This document shows, piece by piece, positions 54,336-64,000 of a stretch of DNA of 64,000 bases. Under the pieces are notes generated by a model. That model ran no database searches. It was not told the DNA's origin and saw only the letters and a list, made by a program, of their open reading frames with translations. This DNA is from Methylomarinum sp. Ch1-1 (GTDB taxonomy: Bacteria; Pseudomonadota; Gammaproteobacteria; Methylococcales; Methylomonadaceae). The translations under genes were made by a program, and so were the position numbers. The stretch spans positions 4,056,501 to 4,120,500 of the forward strand of contig NZ_CP157743.1 in NCBI RefSeq assembly GCF_030717995.2, read 5' to 3'. The first letter of the stretch is position 1. Each line of letters starts with the position of its first letter.

Positions 54336-55832
54336 TCAAGCCAAGTCGGCCAGAATCTTATCCCGCACCAACTGCCCGCTCAAGGTCACCATCGGCATGC
54401 CGCCGCCGGGATTGACGCTGCCGCCGACATAATACAGGTTGCGGAGTTGTCGGTCGCGTTGAGGCGCCTTGAAGCCCAGGTTCTTGAAACGATCCGAGAC
54501 CACACCGTAAATCGAGCCCTGATTAGAATAATAATTCGCCTCGATGTCCAACGGCGTCCAAGTCTCCTCGCAGACGATATGCCGGCGCAGATCCTCCAAT
54601 CCCATGTTTTCCAACTTGGTCAACACGCGCTCGCGGAAATCCATGCAATCCTCTCGCCGCATGGGCTGCTCCGGATCCAAATGCGGGATATGCGGCAAAA
54701 CCTTGATGATTTCACACCCTTCCGGCGCTTGGCCCGGATCGCTCTTGACCGGCGCGACCAAATATAAGGTCGGATCGTCGGATAGACGATTTTGATGAAA
54801 AGCGGACTCGAAATGTCGTTTCGGCTGTTCCGAATAGAAAAAATTATGATGCGCCAGTTGCGGATATAGCTTGTCGACGCCGAGATGCATGACCAGGCCT
54901 GAGCAGCTAGGAGCGAAGCGCCGCAACGCCTTTAATTCCCGCTCCGATCGTTGCAATAATTTGCGCGCGGCAGGAATAACCTCCATATTGGAAACGACGA
55001 TATCGGCCGCCAGCGTCTCGCCATTACCTAGCCTAACCGCAGACACCCGATCATGATCGGCTTCTATGCGCTCCACTTCACAGTCGAGATGAATCTCGAC
55101 ACCGAGCTCCTCCGCCAGCTGCTGCATTGCACTGGCCAAACCATACATGCCGCCTTTGACATACCACAGTCCGTACTCGAACTGAATATATGGCAGCAGA
55201 TTCATCAACGCCGGCGCATCATAAGGAGACGAACCGACATATTTGATAAAGTAATTCAGCACGTCGACCAGCTTCGGGTTACTGATATAGCGCCTGACGC
55301 CCTGATCCATCGAGCGGAACACATCGAAATCGAAGAGACTGTGCAGCACGCCGTAATGGCCGAGCAATTCGCTAAAGCTATCCAGGCCCTTGGCGAAATA
55401 GCCTTGTTCGGTGACCTGGCCGAGTTTTTTCGAGTAAGCCATGAAACGCTCGAATTCGGCCACCGACTTTTGATCGAGCTTGCCCAATTCGCTGCGCATC
55501 GTTTCGGGATCTGAGCTTAAATCGAACACCGCGCCATCGGCGAAAAAGTTGCGCCAGTGCGGTTCCACCGTTTCAATCTCGACATAATCCTCCAGTCTTT
55601 TACCAACCCGCTCGAACAAACGCCTGAATATATGCGGCATGGTCAAGATCGACGGCCCCAGATCGAACGTGAAGCCATCTTTCTTCAGCACATTGAGCTT
55701 GCCGCCAACTTGGGCGTTTTTTTCCAGCAGGGTGACGGCAAAGCCTTCGCTGGCCAGGGAAATGGCGGCAGACAGTCCGCCGAGCCCGGCCCCGATGACG
55801 ACAATTTTTTGCTGACGTGGTTGAGTGTTCAT
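54336..55832 (-). CDS. crtNb: CrtN-type carotenoid oxygenase (4,4'-diapolycopene oxidase)
   Basis: A 498-residue FAD enzyme related to phytoene desaturases. It has the N-terminal FAD site VVIGAGLGGLSAAISLASEG and a C-terminal NLYYVGGSVNPGGGMPMVTL. It is the second CrtN-like protein of this operon. In Methylomonas the CrtNb enzyme oxidises the terminal methyl groups of C30 carotenoids to aldehydes. The gene starts 1 bp after the ald stop. Which of the two CrtN-like proteins is desaturase and which oxidase is set here by operon order and remains an inference. Confidence 0.82.
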   Translation of the reverse strand: MNTQPRQQKIVVIGAGLGGLSAAISLASEGFAVTLLEKNAQVGGKLNVLKKDGFTFDLGPSILTMPHIFRRLFERVGKRLEDYVEIETVEPHWRNFFADGAVFDLSSDPETMRSELGKLDQKSVAEFERFMAYSKKLGQVTEQGYFAKGLDSFSELLGHYGVLHSLFDFDVFRSMDQGVRRYISNPKLVDVLNYFIKYVGSSPYDAPALMNLLPYIQFEYGLWYVKGGMYGLASAMQQLAEELGVEIHLDCEVERIEADHDRVSAVRLGNGETLAADIVVSNMEVIPAARKLLQRSERELKALRRFAPSCSGLVMHLGVDKLYPQLAHHNFFYSEQPKRHFESAFHQNRLSDDPTLYLVAPVKSDPGQAPEGCEIIKVLPHIPHLDPEQPMRREDCMDFRERVLTKLENMGLEDLRRHIVCEETWTPLDIEANYYSNQGSIYGVVSDRFKNLGFKAPQRDRQLRNLYYVGGSVNPGGGMPMVTLSGQLVRDKILADLA

Positions 55833-55833
55833 G

Positions 55834-57429
55834 TTAATGCTGTCTTCTCGAAACGAAAATCAGAAAATTGCGCCAGTGCTGACCAAGATTCAGCCCGGCA
55901 TATTGTTGAAAAGCGCGCAATTCGCGCCAGTTGCGCCCTATCCGTCCCAAAACGGACCCAGAGCCGAATAAAAAATCGATGAAGGCGCGCAGTTCTCGAT
56001 AGCGCTGTTCCGAATAGGGAAACCAGTTGGGTTCCCGACTGAAACGGGCGCGACTGACCAAACCAGAAACGGTATAGGTGAAACTGCGTAATCCTTCCGC
56101 GCCATGATAGCGGCCGAAACCGCTGCGGCCGACACCGCCGAACGGCAGTCCGGGGTGACCGACGTTTTTCAGCACATCATTGACGATCCAGTTACCGACC
56201 GGTAATCGCTCGGCAAGGCGCCGCGCCTTGTCGATATTCCGGCTCCAAATGCTGACGTTCAGCCCGAAATCAACGGCCTTGACCCGTTCGACCAGCTCTG
56301 TTTCATCGCTGAACGACATCACCGGCAACAAGGGGCCAAAGGTTTCTTCCCGCATGATATTCATGTCGTCGCTGACATTCCATAACACCACGGGCCGCAA
56401 ATAAGCACCGTCCCGGGTCAATGGCCCGGAGGCCTGAGCCCCCTTGGCCAGCGCATCCCGATACTGGGCTTCAATCACGGATAGCTGATGGGGCGAACTG
56501 ATTGCACCCAAATCGCCCTGATCACCATGACCGACTTTCAGCACGGCCACGGCCTCGCAAAGCCGTTCGACGAAGACTTCGAAAAGACTATCCTCGACAT
56601 AGAGACGCTCAACCGCGACACAGACCTGGCCGCTATTGCAGAAGGCGCCATAAAGGGCGCCATTGACCGACCGTTGCAGATCGGCATCGGCAAACACCAG
56701 CATCGCATCCTTGCCTCCCAGTTCGAGTATCACCGGAATCGGATGGCGCGCGGCGGCGGCCATGATGCTGCGACCGGCATTGACTCCGCCGGTAAAAAAA
56801 ACCAGATCGGGACGTCGCTCTATCAATTCACGCCCGGTCTGCGGCCCGCCGACCAGCCATTGCACCAATCCTTCCGGAAGCTCAAGCGGCGTCAGCAGAT
56901 CGAGGATCAACTCGCCGACCGGCAGGCTCAATTCGGAGGTTTTGAAGACGACGCCGTTGCCGGCAATCAACGCCGACAATAAAGGATACAGGGTCAGCTG
57001 TAAGGGAAAATTCCACGGCGAAATCACCGCGACCACGCCATAAGGCTGGTATCGGTAGCCCGCCTCCGCATCGGGAAAAGCCAGCGGCGAAGTGCTTACC
57101 GGTCTAGGCGCCAAGATGGCGCCCGCATGTTTACGGTAATAATCCATCATCGCCAACAGCGGATAAATCTCGCCCAACAAAACTTCGCTCTTGACCTTGC
57201 CGGTCACCGCAACCAATCGCTCGGTGATGTTATCGAGATCGGCAACCAATCGCTCCCGCAATGGCGACAATATCGCCAGACGCCGCTCGACGCTATAAGA
57301 ACTCCAGATCGCCGCCGCCTGCCTAGCCGTCGCCATGCGTCGGCCGACTTGCTCGGCCGGCGTCACCGAATAGGCTTTCAGGCGTCGTCCGTCCAGCGGA
57401 CTGAATACCTCGATCGTTTTCACCGTCAC
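55834..57429 (-). CDS. ald: Carotenoid aldehyde dehydrogenase
   Basis: About 531 residues, NAD-dependent aldehyde dehydrogenase. The GTG at 57429 overlaps the crtN stop as GTGA and gives MTVKTIEVFSPLDG; an in-frame TTG at 57450 is less likely. Motifs: VISPWNFPLQLTLYPLLSAL, ILELGGKDAMLVFADADLQR (catalytic Glu), and FCNSGQVCVAVERLYVE (catalytic Cys). A hydrophobic or aromatic tail follows the ALDH core. In C30-carotenoid operons this enzyme oxidises diapocarotenal end groups to acids. It is sandwiched between the two CrtN-like genes. Confidence 0.88.
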   Translation of the reverse strand: MTVKTIEVFSPLDGRRLKAYSVTPAEQVGRRMATARQAAAIWSSYSVERRLAILSPLRERLVADLDNITERLVAVTGKVKSEVLLGEIYPLLAMMDYYRKHAGAILAPRPVSTSPLAFPDAEAGYRYQPYGVVAVISPWNFPLQLTLYPLLSALIAGNGVVFKTSELSLPVGELILDLLTPLELPEGLVQWLVGGPQTGRELIERRPDLVFFTGGVNAGRSIMAAAARHPIPVILELGGKDAMLVFADADLQRSVNGALYGAFCNSGQVCVAVERLYVEDSLFEVFVERLCEAVAVLKVGHGDQGDLGAISSPHQLSVIEAQYRDALAKGAQASGPLTRDGAYLRPVVLWNVSDDMNIMREETFGPLLPVMSFSDETELVERVKAVDFGLNVSIWSRNIDKARRLAERLPVGNWIVNDVLKNVGHPGLPFGGVGRSGFGRYHGAEGLRSFTYTVSGLVSRARFSREPNWFPYSEQRYRELRAFIDFLFGSGSVLGRIGRNWRELRAFQQYAGLNLGQHWRNFLIFVSRRQH

Positions 57430-58958
57430 GACAAGGACGGCCCCAACCAATCGTTGTTCGGTATCGCGGGAAATTCGACACCGTACTTATCACAAATCAT
57501 GTTGGCGGAAATACGGGCGGACTCATAAATAGTCGGCAAACCGCTGCCCGGATGAGTGCCGCCACCGACCAGATAACAACGTTCCAGTTCTTCGAAACGA
57601 TTATGTGGGCGCCAATACAGCATCTGACTGAATTTATGCGACAAATTGAAGGTTGCGCCGAAAAACACATTTTCGTCGTGCTGCCAGTTCTCCGGCGTAA
57701 TGTTTTTCTCATAGACGATATGGTCGCGAACATCATCCAAGCCCAGCCTGTCGCCGAGGGCATCGAGCACCTGCTCGCGGACTGCAGCCAACTGCTCCGG
57801 CCAGGCTATGCCGCTCTGATTGTTAGGCACCGGCACCAGCACATAAAGCGTCGACTGGCCGGCCGGCGCCAAACTGTCGTCGCTGACGCTGGCATTTTGC
57901 ACATAGAACGAAAAATCATCGGACAGTGTTTTATTGGAAAAAATATTGTCTACATTGCCTTTGTAATCGCTGGCGAAGACGATATTGTGATGAGGAATAT
58001 CATAGCGTTTGTCCAGCCCCAAATAGAGCATGAAGGTGGAACAGGAATATTCCTTGTTGCCGATGTTCTCGCGGCTGTAACGTTTCAATACACCGGGCTC
58101 GACCAGCTCGGTCATCGCATAGGCGAAATCGGCGTTGACGATGACTTCATCGGCCGTCACCTCGGAACCGTCCGCGAGCCTGACGCCCGTCGCCCTGCCC
58201 TTTTCGACGATTAACGACTGCACCGCCATGTTGCGATGAATGGCGCCGCCCTGCTCCTCGATCACTTTAGCCATCGCGTTGGAAATACGATTTAACCCGC
58301 CCTTGACATGATAGATGCCGTAGCGATGCTCCAGATAGGACAGCATCGTAAACAAGGCCGGGCATTGCCAAGGCGACATGCCCAAGTATTTGGATTGAAA
58401 GGAAAAGATCAAGCGCAGCTTTTCTTCCTGAAAATAACGACCCAAGTTGGAAAAGACACTGTGATTGACGGCAAGCTGCGGCAAGGCCTTGAGGAGGTCG
58501 AGCGAGAAAAAAGCCTTCAGACTGGAATAATCGCGGGTGATGCAGGGGTAAAGATGACGGAAACGCTTATCTTCCCTGGCCAGGAAACGGTCGTAATCGG
58601 CCGGACTGTCGGGGAAAACCCGCCGCAACTCCTGCCGCATTTTGTCCGGGTCGGAATAAACCTGGATCTGCCGGTCGTCGAACAGCAAGCGGTACATCGG
58701 CTCCAAACGCATGAACTCGAGATAATCGGCGCTGTCGCGGCCGCACAGTTCAAACATTTCATCGAGCACCCCCTTCATCAATAGGAAGGTCGGCCCGGTG
58801 TCGAAGATAAAACCATCGGCCCTAATGCCCCGGTTACGTCCTCCTATCTCGCTATTCTTGTCGAATAGGGAAACCTTAAAACCGCGATGACTGAGCAGCA
58901 TCGCCGCAGTTAATCCTCCGGGACCGCCCCCGACGATGACGATATGTTTTTCTGCCAT
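57426..58958 (-). CDS. crtN: 4,4'-diapophytoene desaturase-like protein
   Basis: A 510-residue FAD-dependent desaturase, first gene of the carotenoid operon. The FAD-binding site is IVIVGGGPGGLTAAMLLSHR, with GFIFDTGPTFLLMKGVLDEM-type substrate-domain sequence and the C-terminal YLVGGGTHPGSGLPTIYESA. It would desaturate diapophytoene at the membrane to yellow-red C30 carotenoids. The C30 synthase gene is not in the window. AGGATAA precedes the start, and a MITE-A copy lies 33 bp upstream, between the gene and any distal promoter. Confidence 0.88.
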   Translation of the reverse strand: MAEKHIVIVGGGPGGLTAAMLLSHRGFKVSLFDKNSEIGGRNRGIRADGFIFDTGPTFLLMKGVLDEMFELCGRDSADYLEFMRLEPMYRLLFDDRQIQVYSDPDKMRQELRRVFPDSPADYDRFLAREDKRFRHLYPCITRDYSSLKAFFSLDLLKALPQLAVNHSVFSNLGRYFQEEKLRLIFSFQSKYLGMSPWQCPALFTMLSYLEHRYGIYHVKGGLNRISNAMAKVIEEQGGAIHRNMAVQSLIVEKGRATGVRLADGSEVTADEVIVNADFAYAMTELVEPGVLKRYSRENIGNKEYSCSTFMLYLGLDKRYDIPHHNIVFASDYKGNVDNIFSNKTLSDDFSFYVQNASVSDDSLAPAGQSTLYVLVPVPNNQSGIAWPEQLAAVREQVLDALGDRLGLDDVRDHIVYEKNITPENWQHDENVFFGATFNLSHKFSQMLYWRPHNRFEELERCYLVGGGTHPGSGLPTIYESARISANMICDKYGVEFPAIPNNDWLGPSLS

Positions 58959-58991: not shown

Positions 58992-59217
58992 GTAATTATT
59001 CAGCGTATTTTTATCAGAGGGAGTAGGCTATTGATTTATCGGGCTGTCTGCAACAGGACGTTGCAGTCAGAGCTTACATGGAAGTATTCACCCAGCACCT
59101 AAATTAACGAAGATTATTAATCATAGCCAATAACCTAGGGTATTTAGGTGCTGGGTGAACGCGTCCCGAGAAATCAATGGTCTACTCCCTAAACCCTGAA
59201 AGATACTGAATAGTTAC
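58992..59217. mobile_element. MITE family A, 226-bp copy with 8-bp target duplication
   Basis: Ends GTAATTATTCAGCGTATTTT and the inverse of GTAACTATTCAGTATCTTTC. Flanked by CCTAAAGT on both sides (58984-58991 and 59218-59225). It contains a 65-bp hairpin (59091-59155) but not the 51-bp module. It sits directly upstream of crtN. Confidence 0.95.
59091..59155 (-). repeat. 65-bp hairpin module, copy 8 (flipped core)
   Basis: Same arms and same position in MITE-A as the 28.96 kb copy, but the core matches that copy only as its reverse complement (about 38 of 45 positions across arms' inner edge and core). Confidence 0.88.
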
Positions 59218-59378: not shown

Positions 59379-59412
59379 CGCCGAATAAATTCAGGGATGA
59401 ATTTATTCGGCG
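59379..59412 (-). terminator. Hairpin after the methyltransferase gene
   Basis: A perfect 15-bp inverted repeat (CGCCGAATAAATTCA / TGAATTTATTCGGCG) with a 4-base loop, starting 5 bp after the stop. No clear U-run; it may work in both directions, also blocking read-through toward crtN. Confidence 0.6.
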
Positions 59413-59990: not shown

Positions 59991-60548
59991 CTGTTAGCCC
60001 GGACCGATGCTAAAACTATCACAGACCAGTACTCAGTCATTTTATATATGACGGGTACTCGGCAGGTGCCAGCTATTCCCGGTTTGAGCATTTGCGCTGT
60101 GTTTAGGGCATGGGGTGTGCTGTCATCCACGCCAAACACACCCCATGCCCTTTTTGAACGCCAAACAGGGAAATGCTGAGGTAGGTGCGAATTTATTAGC
60201 ATTGCGCGACTAAATCCGCACCTACATGCGCAATTGCCGACAAAATAAGATTGACTATGTACTAGTACAGCATCCATTTTCATCTGCTGACTTATCTACT
60301 TTAGCAAGCGCATGAATTCTTAGGCATTTGTAATGTCTTTAACCGCCATTAGAATAATGGTGCTGCACCAGGCTTAGCGCCGAACCTTGAGGATACATTT
60401 CGTTCATCCTTATGATTATTCCATAGGATTAGTAAATTACAAGCCGGCGCTCTTATTTACACGCTATCGCGGCCTCATCTTTACAATAACGCCGAACACA
60501 TCCAACAGCGTATTTTTCAGTCATCGCCGTTGTCTGAAATTCATCGCC
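59991..60548. other. Intergenic region holding a compact MITE-B
   Basis: Apart from the MITE-B at 60070-60178 and CAATTGCCGACAAAATAAG-type sequence after it, nothing is recognised. An open frame at 60387-60827 is a shadow of the regulator gene on the other strand. Confidence 0.5.
60070..60178. mobile_element. MITE family B, compact 109-bp copy
   Basis: Ends CAGCTATTCCCGGTTTGAGC and AAACAGGGAAATGCTG. A central inverted repeat has arms GGGCATGGGGTGTG / CACACCCCATGCCC. No hairpin module. The flanks CGGCAGGTGC and AGGTAGGTGC agree at 8 of 10 bases, supporting a 10-bp target duplication. This is probably the basic form of family B. Confidence 0.85.
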
Positions 60549-61457
60549 TTAGGCCTTATTGATAAACGCCTTCAATTTCCAAGCCTTATGGTAGAACTGA
60601 TCGATATCGGCAAGAAACTGGATATGCTGTGCGAGTTGATGGCGCTCAGCCAAATAAAGGACGCCATTGCCGCCTATCCAGACATCGATCTTGGCCTTCC
60701 TTGCGGCATGACTCAACGTGTCCAATTCTACGCACACGGATTCCTCTGGCGGGGTATTGACTACGCTCAATACGATAATATTGGGTTTAAGATGACGACT
60801 GGCTTCGATGATATCTTCAACCGGTAAATCACTGCCTAAATAATAACAATTATATTGTTGGGAAGCCGCCAATAGACAAGCCATCAAAATACCGAACTCA
60901 TGCGTCTCACCCTGCGGCGTTGCGAACATCATGCTCGGCCTGTCATCGGTCAATTGATGAATATTGTTGATCATGCTCAAGATGATCCTTTTCACACAGG
61001 CCGAAAACATATGCTCCTGAGCGATGCTGAGTTTTTTTTCATGCCAAAGCTGGCCGACCGTCTGCAGGGTAGGCTGAAGAATATTGCGCACATAATCCAC
61101 TGGCTCGTAAGCCAATAACGCCCTTTTCAGCAATTCTTCACAACGGTCCACACGGTATTGCAACAAGGCTTCGACCACTCGAGCAATAAACTGTTCGTGC
61201 CCGCTATTAGCGCCCTTTTTGTCCTGCCGAATCAGACTATCCAATTGCCTGTTATCCATGCGCGATATTTTGCCAATGCTATGTCCATGTCGGGTCAAAT
61301 CGGCCAGCAGCATTAAGCGCTCCAAGTCTTGTTCGGAATAGGCCCGTCGCCCACTGGCATCGCGCCTGGGAGTCACCACCTGATAACGCCTTTCCCATGC
61401 CCTTAGGGTTTCGGTACTGAGACCGGTTAACGTTGCGATCGCTTTAATGCTATACAT
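60549..61457 (-). CDS. MerR-family B12-dependent photoreceptor regulator (CarH/LitR-like)
   Basis: 302 residues from the ATG at 61457; a GTG at 61502 lies upstream of the expected transcript start, so is rejected. N-terminal MerR helix-turn-helix (1-70, IATLTGLSTETLRAWERRYQ), helical bundle (80-165), cobalamin-binding Rossmann domain (170-300). Two CarH hallmarks are present: W138 followed by nine residues and E148-H149 (Wx9EH), and ETHEFG (ExHxxG) with the cobalt-ligand H186. Family members bind adenosylcobalamin in the dark as repressor tetramers and let go of DNA in light. The gene is divergent from a sigma-factor gene and 1.5 kb from the carotenoid operon's neighbourhood, the usual target of CarH/LitR. 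Confidence 0.88.
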   Translation of the reverse strand: MYSIKAIATLTGLSTETLRAWERRYQVVTPRRDASGRRAYSEQDLERLMLLADLTRHGHSIGKISRMDNRQLDSLIRQDKKGANSGHEQFIARVVEALLQYRVDRCEELLKRALLAYEPVDYVRNILQPTLQTVGQLWHEKKLSIAQEHMFSACVKRIILSMINNIHQLTDDRPSMMFATPQGETHEFGILMACLLAASQQYNCYYLGSDLPVEDIIEASRHLKPNIIVLSVVNTPPEESVCVELDTLSHAARKAKIDVWIGGNGVLYLAERHQLAQHIQFLADIDQFYHKAWKLKAFINKA

Positions 61458-61465
61458 TGCACCTA

Positions 61466-61487
61466 TTTTGTTTATGTTTTGTTTATG
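61466..61487. promoter_or_regulatory. Tandem 11-bp operator for the CarH-like regulator
   Basis: TTTTGTTTATG occurs twice head to tail (61466-61476, 61477-61487). The minus-strand form contains TAAACA in each repeat, fitting the TnnACA core and 11-bp spacing recalled for CarH operators. It lies just downstream of the regulator's predicted transcript start and just upstream of the sigma gene's -35. Confidence 0.7.
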
Positions 61488-61495
61488 TTTTTTAA

Positions 61496-61524
61496 TTGAC
61501 ACACATTCTACAAAGATGTAACTT
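61496..61524 (+). promoter_or_regulatory. Promoter of the sigma-factor gene
   Basis: TTGACA (perfect -35), 17 bp, TAACTT (weak -10). It overlaps the oppositely oriented promoter of the regulator, so the two cannot be occupied at once. The distance to the ATG is 35 bp. Confidence 0.65.
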
Positions 61525-61533
61525 AATTGCCAA
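61505..61533 (-). promoter_or_regulatory. Promoter of the CarH-like regulator gene
   Basis: On the minus strand TTGGCA, 17 bp, TAGAAT; each hexamer matches 5 of 6 consensus bases. The predicted start is near 61498, so the 11-bp repeats fall in the first 10-35 transcribed bases, a good place for autorepression. Confidence 0.75.
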
Positions 61534-61559
61534 GTCTTAAATAAGCAGGTGAATTGTAG

Positions 61560-62747
61560 ATGTCATTACTTCCTACTCAGTTAGCTCCGAAAAATGAACC
61601 CTCTAATAGCATGGATGAAATGCAAACGCTGGCGCTATACTTAGAACAACTGCGCAGTCGCCTGCAGCAGGCATTATTAGCTAATCCTACCGGTATGGTC
61701 ATAGTCGCCGAACGCTTTTTATCGGCCCTGAAGCAAAATACCGATCTCAGCGAGCTGGTCAACAGTAAAAGCAGCAAGGACCAAGCTGTACAAGATAATA
61801 CATCTGTACAACCTAACCTTAAACAGTTTGAACAACAACTGACGACATTATTGACTCAAGCGATAGACAAGCCCGCCTGTGTGGCTCCGGCAGTGCTGCA
61901 TGCTCATTTCCTGCCTGCTTTTTTACTTCAGGTGAGTGCGGCAGTAATCGAGATCGACCAGGAAGACACCTCTTATCGGCTTAAGCTGGCCCGGCTAAGG
62001 GATGAATTACAAAGCACACGCCAACAAATGGTGTTGAAAAATCGTAAATTGGTTGCCTTCATCGTGCGCAAATACAAAAGCGGCAATATAAGCTTCCATG
62101 ACCTCTCGCAAGAAGGCATGGTCGGCCTGCTCAAAGCGGTCGATCGTTTTGATTATCGTCGCGAAATACGCTTTTCCACCTATGCCAGTTATTGGATCAG
62201 ACAAACGGTTTCTCGACTGGTGGTGCGCCAGGAAAAAATAGTCCGACTGCCGTTCGGACTGGCTGAAAAGGCTCCAACCATCTTTGAAATCATGCGCAAC
62301 AGCTATATCGAGGAAAATCGCTGGCCGACCATCATCGAATTGAAAGCAAAGTGCGATCTAAGCGAAGAGGAAATCAAGACTATTATCAGTTTTTACCAAG
62401 CGTCCTTAACCGTCAGTTCGGTGCAAAATGACGAGGAGGACAGCCAAGATGTGATAAACAGTCTGCAACAGCATCAATTTCCTGAACCCTTAGATAAATT
62501 GGAAGGGCAAAGTTTAAACCAGTATCTAAGCCTAGCCATCGATTCACTGCCGAAAAGAGAAGCCGATATTTTAAGGCTGCGTTTCGGGCTGAAAAATCAT
62601 CATGAAATGACGTTGCAGGCCGTCGCCGAACAAATGCAACTGACTCGCGAAAGGATCAGGCAAATTCAAAACAATGCATTGGAAACATTGAAGCAGAATT
62701 TTGGTTTTGAGTTAAAAATGTACTTAACAACCCATGAAGGACATTAG
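61560..62747 (+). CDS. Sigma-70-family RNA polymerase sigma factor
   Basis: 395 residues. Region 2 (about 157-222) reads HDLSQEGMVGLLKAVDRFDY and FSTYASYWIRQTVSR, close to RpoD/RpoS-type factors. Region 3 is divergent (about 235-300), and region 4 (328-380) has LPKREADILRLRFGL and the helix-turn-helix TLQAVAEQMQLTRERIRQIQ. The first 150 residues do not resemble region 1 of RpoD or RpoS that I can recognise, so this is a non-essential (group 2/3-like) factor, not an ECF factor. AGGTGA lies 7 bp before the ATG. It is divergent from a CarH-like repressor with overlapping promoters, so light control is inferred. Confidence 0.85.
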   Translation: MSLLPTQLAPKNEPSNSMDEMQTLALYLEQLRSRLQQALLANPTGMVIVAERFLSALKQNTDLSELVNSKSSKDQAVQDNTSVQPNLKQFEQQLTTLLTQAIDKPACVAPAVLHAHFLPAFLLQVSAAVIEIDQEDTSYRLKLARLRDELQSTRQQMVLKNRKLVAFIVRKYKSGNISFHDLSQEGMVGLLKAVDRFDYRREIRFSTYASYWIRQTVSRLVVRQEKIVRLPFGLAEKAPTIFEIMRNSYIEENRWPTIIELKAKCDLSEEEIKTIISFYQASLTVSSVQNDEEDSQDVINSLQQHQFPEPLDKLEGQSLNQYLSLAIDSLPKREADILRLRFGLKNHHEMTLQAVAEQMQLTRERIRQIQNNALETLKQNFGFELKMYLTTHEGH

Positions 62748-63123
62748 TCGCAAAGCCCGATGCTGAACTTATCGCAGTGTTCAAGGACAAACTATCATAA
62801 GTTTTTTCTGACACCAAAATGATACGCAACGGATCATTAACAACAGATAGTTTACGAACTATAAACAATATTTAGTTAAATTTTTAGATATGATGGCTCT
62901 CTGTTTGCTTTGCAAGACACGAAACGCGACTGCGTTCCCTGGCATGACAACCGGCCAGGTGAATTTTTGCCGCTAATCAAAAATAGAGGCGCTTTGTTTC
63001 AATTTATGAGCCTATCGGATTCAGGATAAAAGCAGCCATGGTACACTTATACAAATCCCAATACCGTCTTAAACAGGTATGTTCCAGCACTAGCTGACTC
63101 ACTGCTCACAAAGAGGTTGAAGC
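62748..63123. other. Intergenic region before ftsH
   Basis: 376 bp. I see no firm promoter; ATACCGTCTTAA near 63060 resembles the end of the 14.2 kb repeat, but the match is too short to call. GAGG lies shortly before the ftsH ATG. Confidence 0.4.
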
Positions 63124-64000
63124 ATGAAAGCACATATAGTTAAAATCTTCATGTTAACCGTGATCGTCACGGTAGTCATATCGCTGTTCAATCGAACAGG
63201 CCCTAGTTACGAACGAAATTACGCCTTGTCGTATTCAGAGTTCATTGAAGATATCCGCAGCGGCGCCATTTCCGAAGTCATAATCAATGACGATATTATC
63301 GATGGCCGACGCACTAATGGTGAACGGTTCACCACATATAATCCTAATGATCCGCATTTAATCGATGAGTTGCTAGAGAACAAGGTCAAAATCAAGGTTG
63401 TTAAACCGGAGAAGCCTTCCGCTTTCATGCAATTTTTCATGTCCTGGGGACCGATCTTGCTGTTGATTGCGGTATGGATCTATTTCATGCGCAGACAACA
63501 GGCTGGCGGCGCCGGTGGCCAAATGAACTTTGGCAAAAGCCGGGCCAAATTGCTGGAGGAAAACCAAGTCAAGATCGGCTTCGATGATGTAGCCGGTGTC
63601 GAGGAAGCCAAGGAAGACGTTTCCGAAATGGTCGACTTCCTGAAAGATCCGGGTAAATATGAATTCCTGGGTGGCAAGATTCCCCGCGGCGTGTTGATGG
63701 TCGGCCCTCCCGGCACCGGTAAAACCCTGCTGGCCAGAGCGATTGCCGGCGAAGCAGGTGTACCGTTTTTTTCAATCTCGGGTTCCGACTTTGTCGAAAT
63801 GTTCGTCGGTGTCGGCGCCTCGCGTGTCAGGGACATGTTCGAACAGGCCAAAAAGCGAGCGCCCTGCATCATCTTCATCGACGAAATTGATGCGGTCGGA
63901 CGTCACCGGGGTTCCGGCATGGGCGGCGGCAATGACGAACGCGAACAAACCCTGAACCAGTTGCTGGTGGAAATGGATGGCTTCAGCGGCAATGAAGGCA
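63124..64000 (+). CDS. ftsH: ATP-dependent zinc metalloprotease FtsH (C-terminus cut)
   Basis: The frame opens at the ATG at 63124 and runs off the right edge (about 292 residues visible). TM1 (about 5-22), a periplasmic domain, TM2 (about 100-120, [19 protein letters not shown]), then the AAA domain with [20 protein letters not shown] (Walker A), [15 protein letters not shown] (Walker B) and the pore motif [17 protein letters not shown]. The second region of homology and the zinc protease domain lie beyond the window. It degrades misfolded membrane proteins and, in relatives, LpxC and sigma-32. The usual rrmJ neighbour upstream is absent; the sigma gene is there instead. Confidence 0.97.

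Follow-up and report, generated by a model that had tools for sequence, protein, structure and literature searches.

The stretch of DNA analysed here (the window) comprises 64,000 nucleotides of the 4.77-Mb genome of Methylomarinum sp. Ch1-1, contig NZ_CP157743.1, positions 4,056,501 to 4,120,500 (G000:C2:4056501-4120500, where G and L numbers label genomes and loci). Close to its right end a carH-like gene diverges from a gene for an RpoD-like sigma factor, behind which lies a gene for an FtsH protease, and the DNA between the two divergent genes contains a predicted CarH operator and two overlapping promoters. Comparison across the methane-oxidiser family to which this organism belongs suggests that these elements probably form a light switch based on vitamin B12. 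The elements are as follows.

60549..61457, minus strand: carH-like gene, 302 amino acids (aa), ATG start; MerR-type DNA-binding domain and two-part cobalamin-binding domain
61468..61489, minus strand: predicted operator, two perfect 11-bp direct repeats AACATAAACAA in the register nAnnTnnACAn, within a perfect tandem tract at 61466-61491
61457..61467, minus strand: degenerate third repeat AATAGGTGCAA, touching the carH start codon; second-best match of the window (15.3) to the operator matrix described below
61505..61533, minus strand: predicted carH promoter TTGGCA-17-TAGAAT (-35 at 61533-61528, -10 at 61510-61505)
61496..61524, plus strand: predicted sigma promoter TTGACA-17-TAACTT (-35 at 61496-61501, -10 at 61519-61524), its -35 kept in both sigma clades
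61560..62747, plus strand: RpoD-like sigma factor, 395 aa, with regions 2 and 4; N-terminal ~150 residues outside Pfam domains
63124..64000, plus strand, continuing beyond the window end (L115:4125-6026): dedicated FtsH protease, 633 aa

The regulator carries the domains and residues of CarH

The regulator matches a MerR domain (PF13411, 59.1 bits) and both parts of the cobalamin-binding domain (PF02607, 58.2 bits; PF02310, 32.5 bits, cut-off 32.1). A Wx9EH motif starts at W138 (WHEKKLSIAQEH), and ETHEFG, which fits D/ExHxxG, starts at E184; an earlier reading of this DNA from its letters alone (the sequence-only reading) had assigned the protein to the CarH/LitR type from its MerR, Wx9EH and ExHxxG features, and that assignment holds. 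When aligned with the solved Thermus CarH, the protein keeps the tryptophan, the histidine next to it, the EH pair and the ligand histidine. Among 21 close-type CarH proteins compared, Wx9EH and D/ExHxxG are present in all 21 and WH in 20 (L080 has WE). G000 encodes one CarH at E 1e-20 or better, together with a CobA/CobO/BtuR cobalamin adenosyltransferase (220 bits), an enzyme that forms adenosylcobalamin (AdoCbl).

Orthologues begin MYxIK, which matches the ATG at 61457, and for this reason we prefer that start to the mechanically called GTG at 61502, which would place the operator within the carH gene. In most relatives the carH ATG directly follows the operator (AAACAATG). The window has AGGTG before this ATG; most relatives (L038-L066) show no visible Shine-Dalgarno sequence.

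A predicted tandem operator lies beside overlapping divergent promoters

Exact 11-bp tandems start in the window only at 61466-61470, so that a perfect tract runs to 61491, somewhat further than the direct repeat at 61466-61487 already picked out by the sequence-only reading. When the whole window was shuffled 20 times under a Markov model, a single shuffle contained one start of this kind; when 61458-61559 was shuffled 20,000 times, 0.03% of the results contained at least one. On the carH strand the AACATAAACAA repeats fit nAnnTnnACAn, the operator unit given for Thermus CarH in the available text of PMC8156234 and also written nnnnTnnACAn in that of PMC9304148. They fall in the carH leader, with the carH promoter on one side and the carH ATG on the other, and, read in the direction of the sigma gene, come shortly before the -35 of its promoter.

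A consensus promoter scan of 61400-63200 gave 6 sites against 3.0 +/- 2.0 expected and no support by itself; it lists the carH promoter and misses the sigma promoter, whose -10 is poor. Support for the promoters comes from conservation. In all 30 carH upstream regions compared, from relatives and the window (28 distinct), two tandem units lie at most 60 bp from the carH ATG and TTGACA stands on the other strand at the equivalent place; full TnnACA units number two in 20 of the regions, and one unit is a weaker TnnGCA in the remaining 10. When 25 distinct 80-base stretches are aligned on TTGACA, they share TTGTT.A.gTTTTGTa (two units), ~10 bp, TTGACA, 17 bp and TAA.tT. For carH, comparison by eye shows that a -35 resembling TTGGCA and a -10 resembling TGTASAAT also recur among relatives. 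The overlapping promoters previously proposed on the two strands are thus supported.

The sigma gene and the operator accompany carH across the family

CarH proteins were found at E 1e-20 or better in 82 of 151 family genomes. In 33 of these the protein is of the close type, with E no higher than 1.4e-86, and 32 of the 33 have the sigma gene divergently adjacent. Across the 151 genomes, CarH occurs together with a sigma of either of two clades in 71, the sigma alone in 13, CarH alone in 11 and neither in 56.

A matrix built only from 19 distinct carH/sigma sites extends this association to the second sigma clade (c6), where the best match of the whole locus lies upstream of the sigma gene in 8 of 11 loci. 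(Scores of at least 18 are expected by chance at 0 per Mb under a Markov model of the window and at 7.7 per Mb under an AT-rich model.) In an extended set of 58 loci, the first 11 included, scores of at least 10 were found upstream of the c6 sigma gene in 35 of 39 loci from genomes with a CarH paralogue, in 5 of 13 second-clade loci from genomes without a detected CarH (in two of the 13, G082 and G138, a contig end truncates the locus) and at 0 of 6 second sigmas in genomes having the carH/sigma pair. The corresponding counts for scores of at least 18 are 24/39, 3/13 and 0/6. The comparison of 35/39 with 5/13 gives a Fisher p of 0.0005, uncorrected for kinship. The CarH paralogue lies within a few kb in three of the 39 genomes (G007, G027 and G028); in the other 36 it is on a different contig or more than 40 kb away (draft contigs in part). 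Paralogous carH genes are also preceded by sites of their own (L089, L090, L091, L093, L094, L096, L101 and L104; 7.6-17.6).

In a whole-genome search of 12 genomes, with 150 of 1464-2657 candidates scored per genome, the best match was the operator before carH/sigma or sigma in 11; these include G084, which lacks the sigma and whose best match is the operator before carH/hflKC. Three loci outside the training set have, among the matches listed, an operator between CarH and sigma (L146, 28.4; L147, 19.7; L149, 33.8) and may be near kin of those in it. The predicted link between a CarH operator and control of the sigma gene, first suggested by the sequence-only reading, is therefore well supported by comparative evidence. 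Since the site in the window has an E of 0.48 and 150 candidates were scored, the operator claim draws on conservation and not on one genome.

By matrix, no operator was found at a second sigma copy of G116, a copy without CarH (L069). A second-clade sigma match at G070:C27:7165-8241 is crossed by 7 stops (4 TGA, 1 TAG, 2 TAA) and is probably a broken gene or an assembly error; its upstream score is 2.7, with no operator.

The sigma factor belongs to a lineage nearly confined to the family

Pfam recognises only Sigma70_r2 (158-225) and Sigma70_r4 (326-379) in the sigma factor, with ~100 residues between them. Extracytoplasmic function (ECF) sigma factors have regions 2 and 4 close together and no region 3, and the ~100 residues separating the two regions place this protein outside the ECF (LitS) type. 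The best curated models are of the MzaA, RpoD and RpoS types, with 175.4 bits for the RpoD model TIGR02393 (cut-off 354) and 171.3 bits for the RpoS model TIGR02394 (cut-off 378.7); another G000 gene scores 429.4 with the latter, and a 615-aa frame at C2:988298 is, by length and score, the presumed RpoD. The description RpoD/RpoS-like can therefore be kept from the sequence-only reading, whereas its unrecognised N-terminus of 150 residues shrinks to about 65-110: among the solved chains listed, the earliest match begins at residue 109, and the matches to two NCBIfam models begin at residues 66 and 78. N-terminal columns common to both sigma clades are A25, L35 and L122. A structure model built with 8 sequences is of moderate quality (mean predicted local distance difference test score 72.8, predicted template-modelling (TM) score 0.51) and has helices predicted at 17-58 and 87-132; the 50 Foldseek matches shown superpose poorly overall (TM score up to 0.36, root-mean-square deviation over 24). 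For both reasons we make no claim on the fold of the N-terminus.

Among 369 genomes of the class searched with alignment A2, only two exceed 286 bits (511 and 523), both in the methane-oxidiser family; among 151 genomes of the order (77 counted in the family), one outside the family has a member (G524, 399 bits). A single sigma protein used as query against genome contigs gave no matches. The sigma tree has two clades, that of the window and c6 (443-505 aa as mechanical frames), and is midpoint-rooted with long branches, so that their sister relation is not settled. As to targets of the sigma factor, inspection by eye revealed no promoter motif in common in the sigma-ftsH gap of four genomes, nor in the ftsH-c3, c3-BLUF and BLUF-SDR gaps of two (these genes are described below); no motif search was run on either set of gaps.

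An FtsH protease is the most constant partner of the sigma gene

The partner that most constantly accompanies the sigma gene, ftsH, often with hflKC, had been overlooked in the sequence-only reading. It lies downstream of the sigma gene in 20 of 21 loci of the window's clade (the window counted via L115), with hflK and hflC clusters in 15 of the 21, and in 10 of 11 loci of the c6 clade, the eleventh of which runs off its contig. The window's FtsH exceeds the cut-off of TIGR01241 (855.3 bits vs 600) and has the PF01434 (peptidase M41) and PF00004 (AAA) domains. In the FtsH tree, the 20 proteins behind window-clade sigma genes and that of G084 form one 21-row clade with full support, and a second clade holds those behind c6 sigma genes, two from genus g29 and L109 of G000. 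The other three of the five FtsH copies of G000 fall outside both clades, two of them on very long branches. No site comparable to the operator was found in the 4.7-kb loci of the four other G000 FtsH genes, where the best score was 12.9 (L111).

The L109 protein thus clusters with FtsH proteins associated with c6, though a c6 sigma was not found in G000. In the genus that lacks the sigma, ftsH is preceded at a distance of ~730 bp by a conserved site resembling the operator (L100:7176 and L105:12707, each scoring 14.5). The sigma-ftsH gap at L081 11805-12465 (G065) partly translates like HflC by eye, with no intact hflK-hflC, and is apparently a decayed hflK-hflC pair.

A candidate light switch controlling sigma and FtsH

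We consider it probable, at roughly 0.75, that at this locus a B12-dependent light switch controls both the sigma factor and the membrane protease, with carH autorepressed. According to the available text of PMC9304148, AdoCbl-bound CarH binds DNA in the dark as a tetramer and is released by light. By analogy, AdoCbl-CarH would assemble in the dark on the tandem 11-bp repeats of the window. Because these are situated both ahead of the sigma -35 and within the leader of carH, a single operator would close both divergent genes, carH and sigma-(hflK-hflC)-ftsH, with repression taking the form of covering the -35. Light would break the Co-C bond and CarH would leave the DNA, so that housekeeping RNA polymerase could then transcribe sigma and ftsH from the TTGACA-17-TAnntT promoter. 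FtsH, with HflKC in many relatives, would deal with photo-damaged membrane proteins as a form of quality control, and the sigma factor would act as a second-tier regulator of a wider light response. We infer the sign of the control (repression) and its dependence on AdoCbl and light from the CarH family; the joint transcription of sigma and ftsH, like the roles proposed for the two proteins, is inferred only. FtsH is known to clear damaged proteins of photosystem II. A more specific version, a light-gated membrane repair in which the private sigma and FtsH-HflKC would clear photo-damaged methane-oxidation membrane proteins and FtsH would degrade the sigma to give one pulse per light exposure, we put forward as a speculation and consider unlikely.

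Several observations weigh against the proposed switch. The regulator scores 126.5 bits with the NCBIfam CarH equivalog NF052513 (cut-off 400), a result that weighs against the narrow equivalog label but leaves membership of the domain family untouched. Its spacers, 41 residues to SxT/V and 28 to the final GG, leave the exact classic motif unmatched, in which, as given in the available text of PMC9304148, SxT/V follows after 41 and GG after 22-27 residues. The coupling has exceptions, since 11 of 82 CarH genomes lack such a sigma and 13 of 84 sigma genomes lack CarH, and the species counts are uncorrected for shared ancestry. Four of the 39 sigma loci in genomes with a CarH paralogue score below 10, 5 of the 13 in genomes without a detected CarH keep an operator-like site (some assemblies being incomplete), and some carH paralogues have only weak sites (L090, L093 and L094, with scores of 7.6-8.2, the lowest at chance level). 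Taken alone, the operator is not significant genome-wide (E 0.48 in G000, 0.42 in G084 and 1.1 in G010), and in G005 it was not found among the 150 candidates scored. Finally, the two repeats end about 6-10 bp before the sigma -35, so that occlusion would need the weak third contact or a wide footprint, and their position upstream of the -35 leaves some slight room for an activating role, taken up below.

The alternative that survives best, although we think it unlikely, is that FtsH is the real output, the sigma being optional and CarH mainly a light switch for the membrane protease. Apart from the constancy of ftsH behind both sigma clades, it draws on G084, of the same genus, in which CarH and the operator (20.5) are followed by hflK-hflC-ftsH without an intervening sigma gene, and on genus g29, where CarH and FtsH genes are tail-to-tail neighbours in two genomes and such a sigma occurs in 0 of 4 searched. 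What counts for the sigma is that it is kept in 32 of 33 close-type genomes, where it stands first behind the operator, and that G110 (L076) keeps it without ftsH behind. In addition, 376 bp separate sigma and ftsH in G000, and their co-transcription is therefore not certain.

A direct drive of carotenoid synthesis, as in other CarH systems, is somewhat less probable still. The genes concerned lie on the same strand as carH.

54336..58958, minus strand: C30 carotenoid genes, presumed crtN-ald-crtNb; neighbours of the locus, with no membership of the circuit implied

Desaturase-family and aldehyde dehydrogenase matches fall in this interval, and we take the genes, from their order, to be crtN-ald-crtNb. 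Their start lies ~2 kb from carH, as the sequence-only reading had noted. In G043, of the same genus, carH, photolyase, methyltransferase and crtN-ald-crtNb genes form a contiguous run on one strand with overlaps or gaps of up to 103 bp (carH and photolyase overlap by 4 bp, the methyltransferase follows after 103 bp and crtN after 11 bp), so the crt genes there could be read from the carH promoter. In G000, by contrast, the sole photolyase-family match is at C2:928116, away from the window, and inverted repeats, including two perfect 15-nt pairs, occupy the DNA between carH and crtN (59018-59190, 59379-59412, 60105-60151 and 60168-60238). They look like small repeat elements inserted in a former operon. 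No operator at crtN appears among the four best matrix matches of the window or in the genome-wide G000 list (150 candidates scored), and crt genes are near carH/sigma in only 3 of 21 sigma loci. A genome search for further repeats, as proposed in the sequence-only reading, returned carH/sigma as the best site and none listed at crtN. Given the distant photolyase gene and the inverted repeats, direct control of crtN is unsupported in G000, and the inclusion of the carotenoid genes in the regulon, as proposed earlier, is not supported for this genome.

The switch might instead mainly report AdoCbl supply, with no operator binding when AdoCbl is absent and light a minor input in bacteria that often live in the dark. 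Many members of the methane-oxidiser family live in sediments, which counts for this possibility. The operator-binding CarH forms described in the available text of PMC9304148 are AdoCbl-bound, which also fits. Set against it are light-related genes nearby, namely BLUF genes in G000 and two other loci of the window's sigma clade and photolyase genes in 4 of its 21 loci. Short PAS proteins with a LOV-like motif occur in 5 of the 21, and we regard a switch that mainly senses supply as distinctly unlikely. Many MerR proteins activate. That CarH does so here, acting from the two best repeats, which span roughly -42 to -63 relative to the sigma promoter and leave its -35 free, is very unlikely, since a promoter with TTGACA and a 17-bp spacer hardly needs an activator and the CarH proteins described in the available text of PMC9304148 repress.

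Comparison with known systems

The predicted light switch for sigma and FtsH is a conserved regulatory module that, judged from its sequences, is a variant of the LitR/CarH-sigma theme. In Streptomyces and Burkholderia, LitR is linked to the gene for an ECF sigma factor, LitS. The locus described here shares a LitR-type regulator linked to a sigma gene and differs in that its sigma factor comes closest to RpoD/RpoS-like models and has ~100 residues between regions 2 and 4. FtsH-HflKC of Escherichia coli and FtsH of photosynthetic membranes offer a comparison for the protease, which shares its family and the SPFH partners with the E. coli complex. Unlike in both, it is a separate copy, one of five FtsH genes in the genome, placed behind a sigma gene under a predicted CarH operator.

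Among class I LitR proteins, the CarH of Thermus thermophilus and that of Bacillus megaterium resemble the regulator in domain make-up, in Wx9EH with the next histidine, in the lower-ligand histidine and in tandem 11-bp nAnnTnnACAn units. Their operators, as described in the available text of PMC9304148, have 3-4 repeats overlapping the -35 or -10 and serve carotenoid genes, whereas here two strong repeats lie beside the -35 of a sigma and ftsH unit. LitR proteins have been divided into classes, and the class II LitR that acts with a short LOV protein in Pseudomonas (PMC9758184, available text) is alike in using a LitR relative for light control, short LOV-like genes lying near some loci here; unlike the present proteins, it keeps only the four-helix domain. 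Of both CarH types, all 8 proteins scanned have both cobalamin domains and all 18 aligned keep the ligand histidine. A class II identity was considered for the CarH paralogues and abandoned because their alignment shows QxHxxG with the ligand histidine kept and the six paralogues scanned have both B12 domains.

CarH is known mainly as a pigment-gene switch. What distinguishes the system proposed here is that the same switch and operator unit appear to be attached, family-wide, to a sigma lineage nearly confined to the methane-oxidiser family and to a membrane protease. Lake studies are said to discuss light inhibition of methane oxidation, for which this would be a candidate circuit. In the literature searched on CarH/LitR, FtsH and the methanotroph light response, with subscription papers mostly outside the search, we found no earlier report of a CarH-sigma-FtsH circuit. 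With one operator before carH, before sigma-ftsH and before a small membrane-protein gene, the predicted regulon is directly testable.

Genes downstream of ftsH

The genes that follow ftsH in G000 lie just past the window end and are listed here in order.

L115:6091-6510: membrane protein, 139 aa, cluster c3, without Pfam match
L115:6630-7514: BLUF-PsiE protein (PF04940, 108.9 bits)
downstream of these: SDR protein

The c3 cluster is represented in 16 of 21 loci and in the window's genome. Additional operator sites were found between the c3 and SDR genes in G135, G024 and G050, and G014 has one ahead of c3. Compared with their counterparts downstream of ftsH in G000, the c3 proteins at these sites show 35-46% identity and the SDR proteins 63-67%, which suggests one gene set under one operator in different arrangements. 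Members of the c3 family, membrane proteins of ~140 aa (L128, L130, L131, L133 and L115:6091-6510), stand beside CarH-type operators or behind ftsH, and on this evidence c3 is a candidate new light-response protein. The BLUF gene, which lies just outside the window and was missed by the sequence-only reading, joins a BLUF blue-light domain to a PsiE membrane domain and brings a second kind of photoreceptor into one gene run with ftsH.

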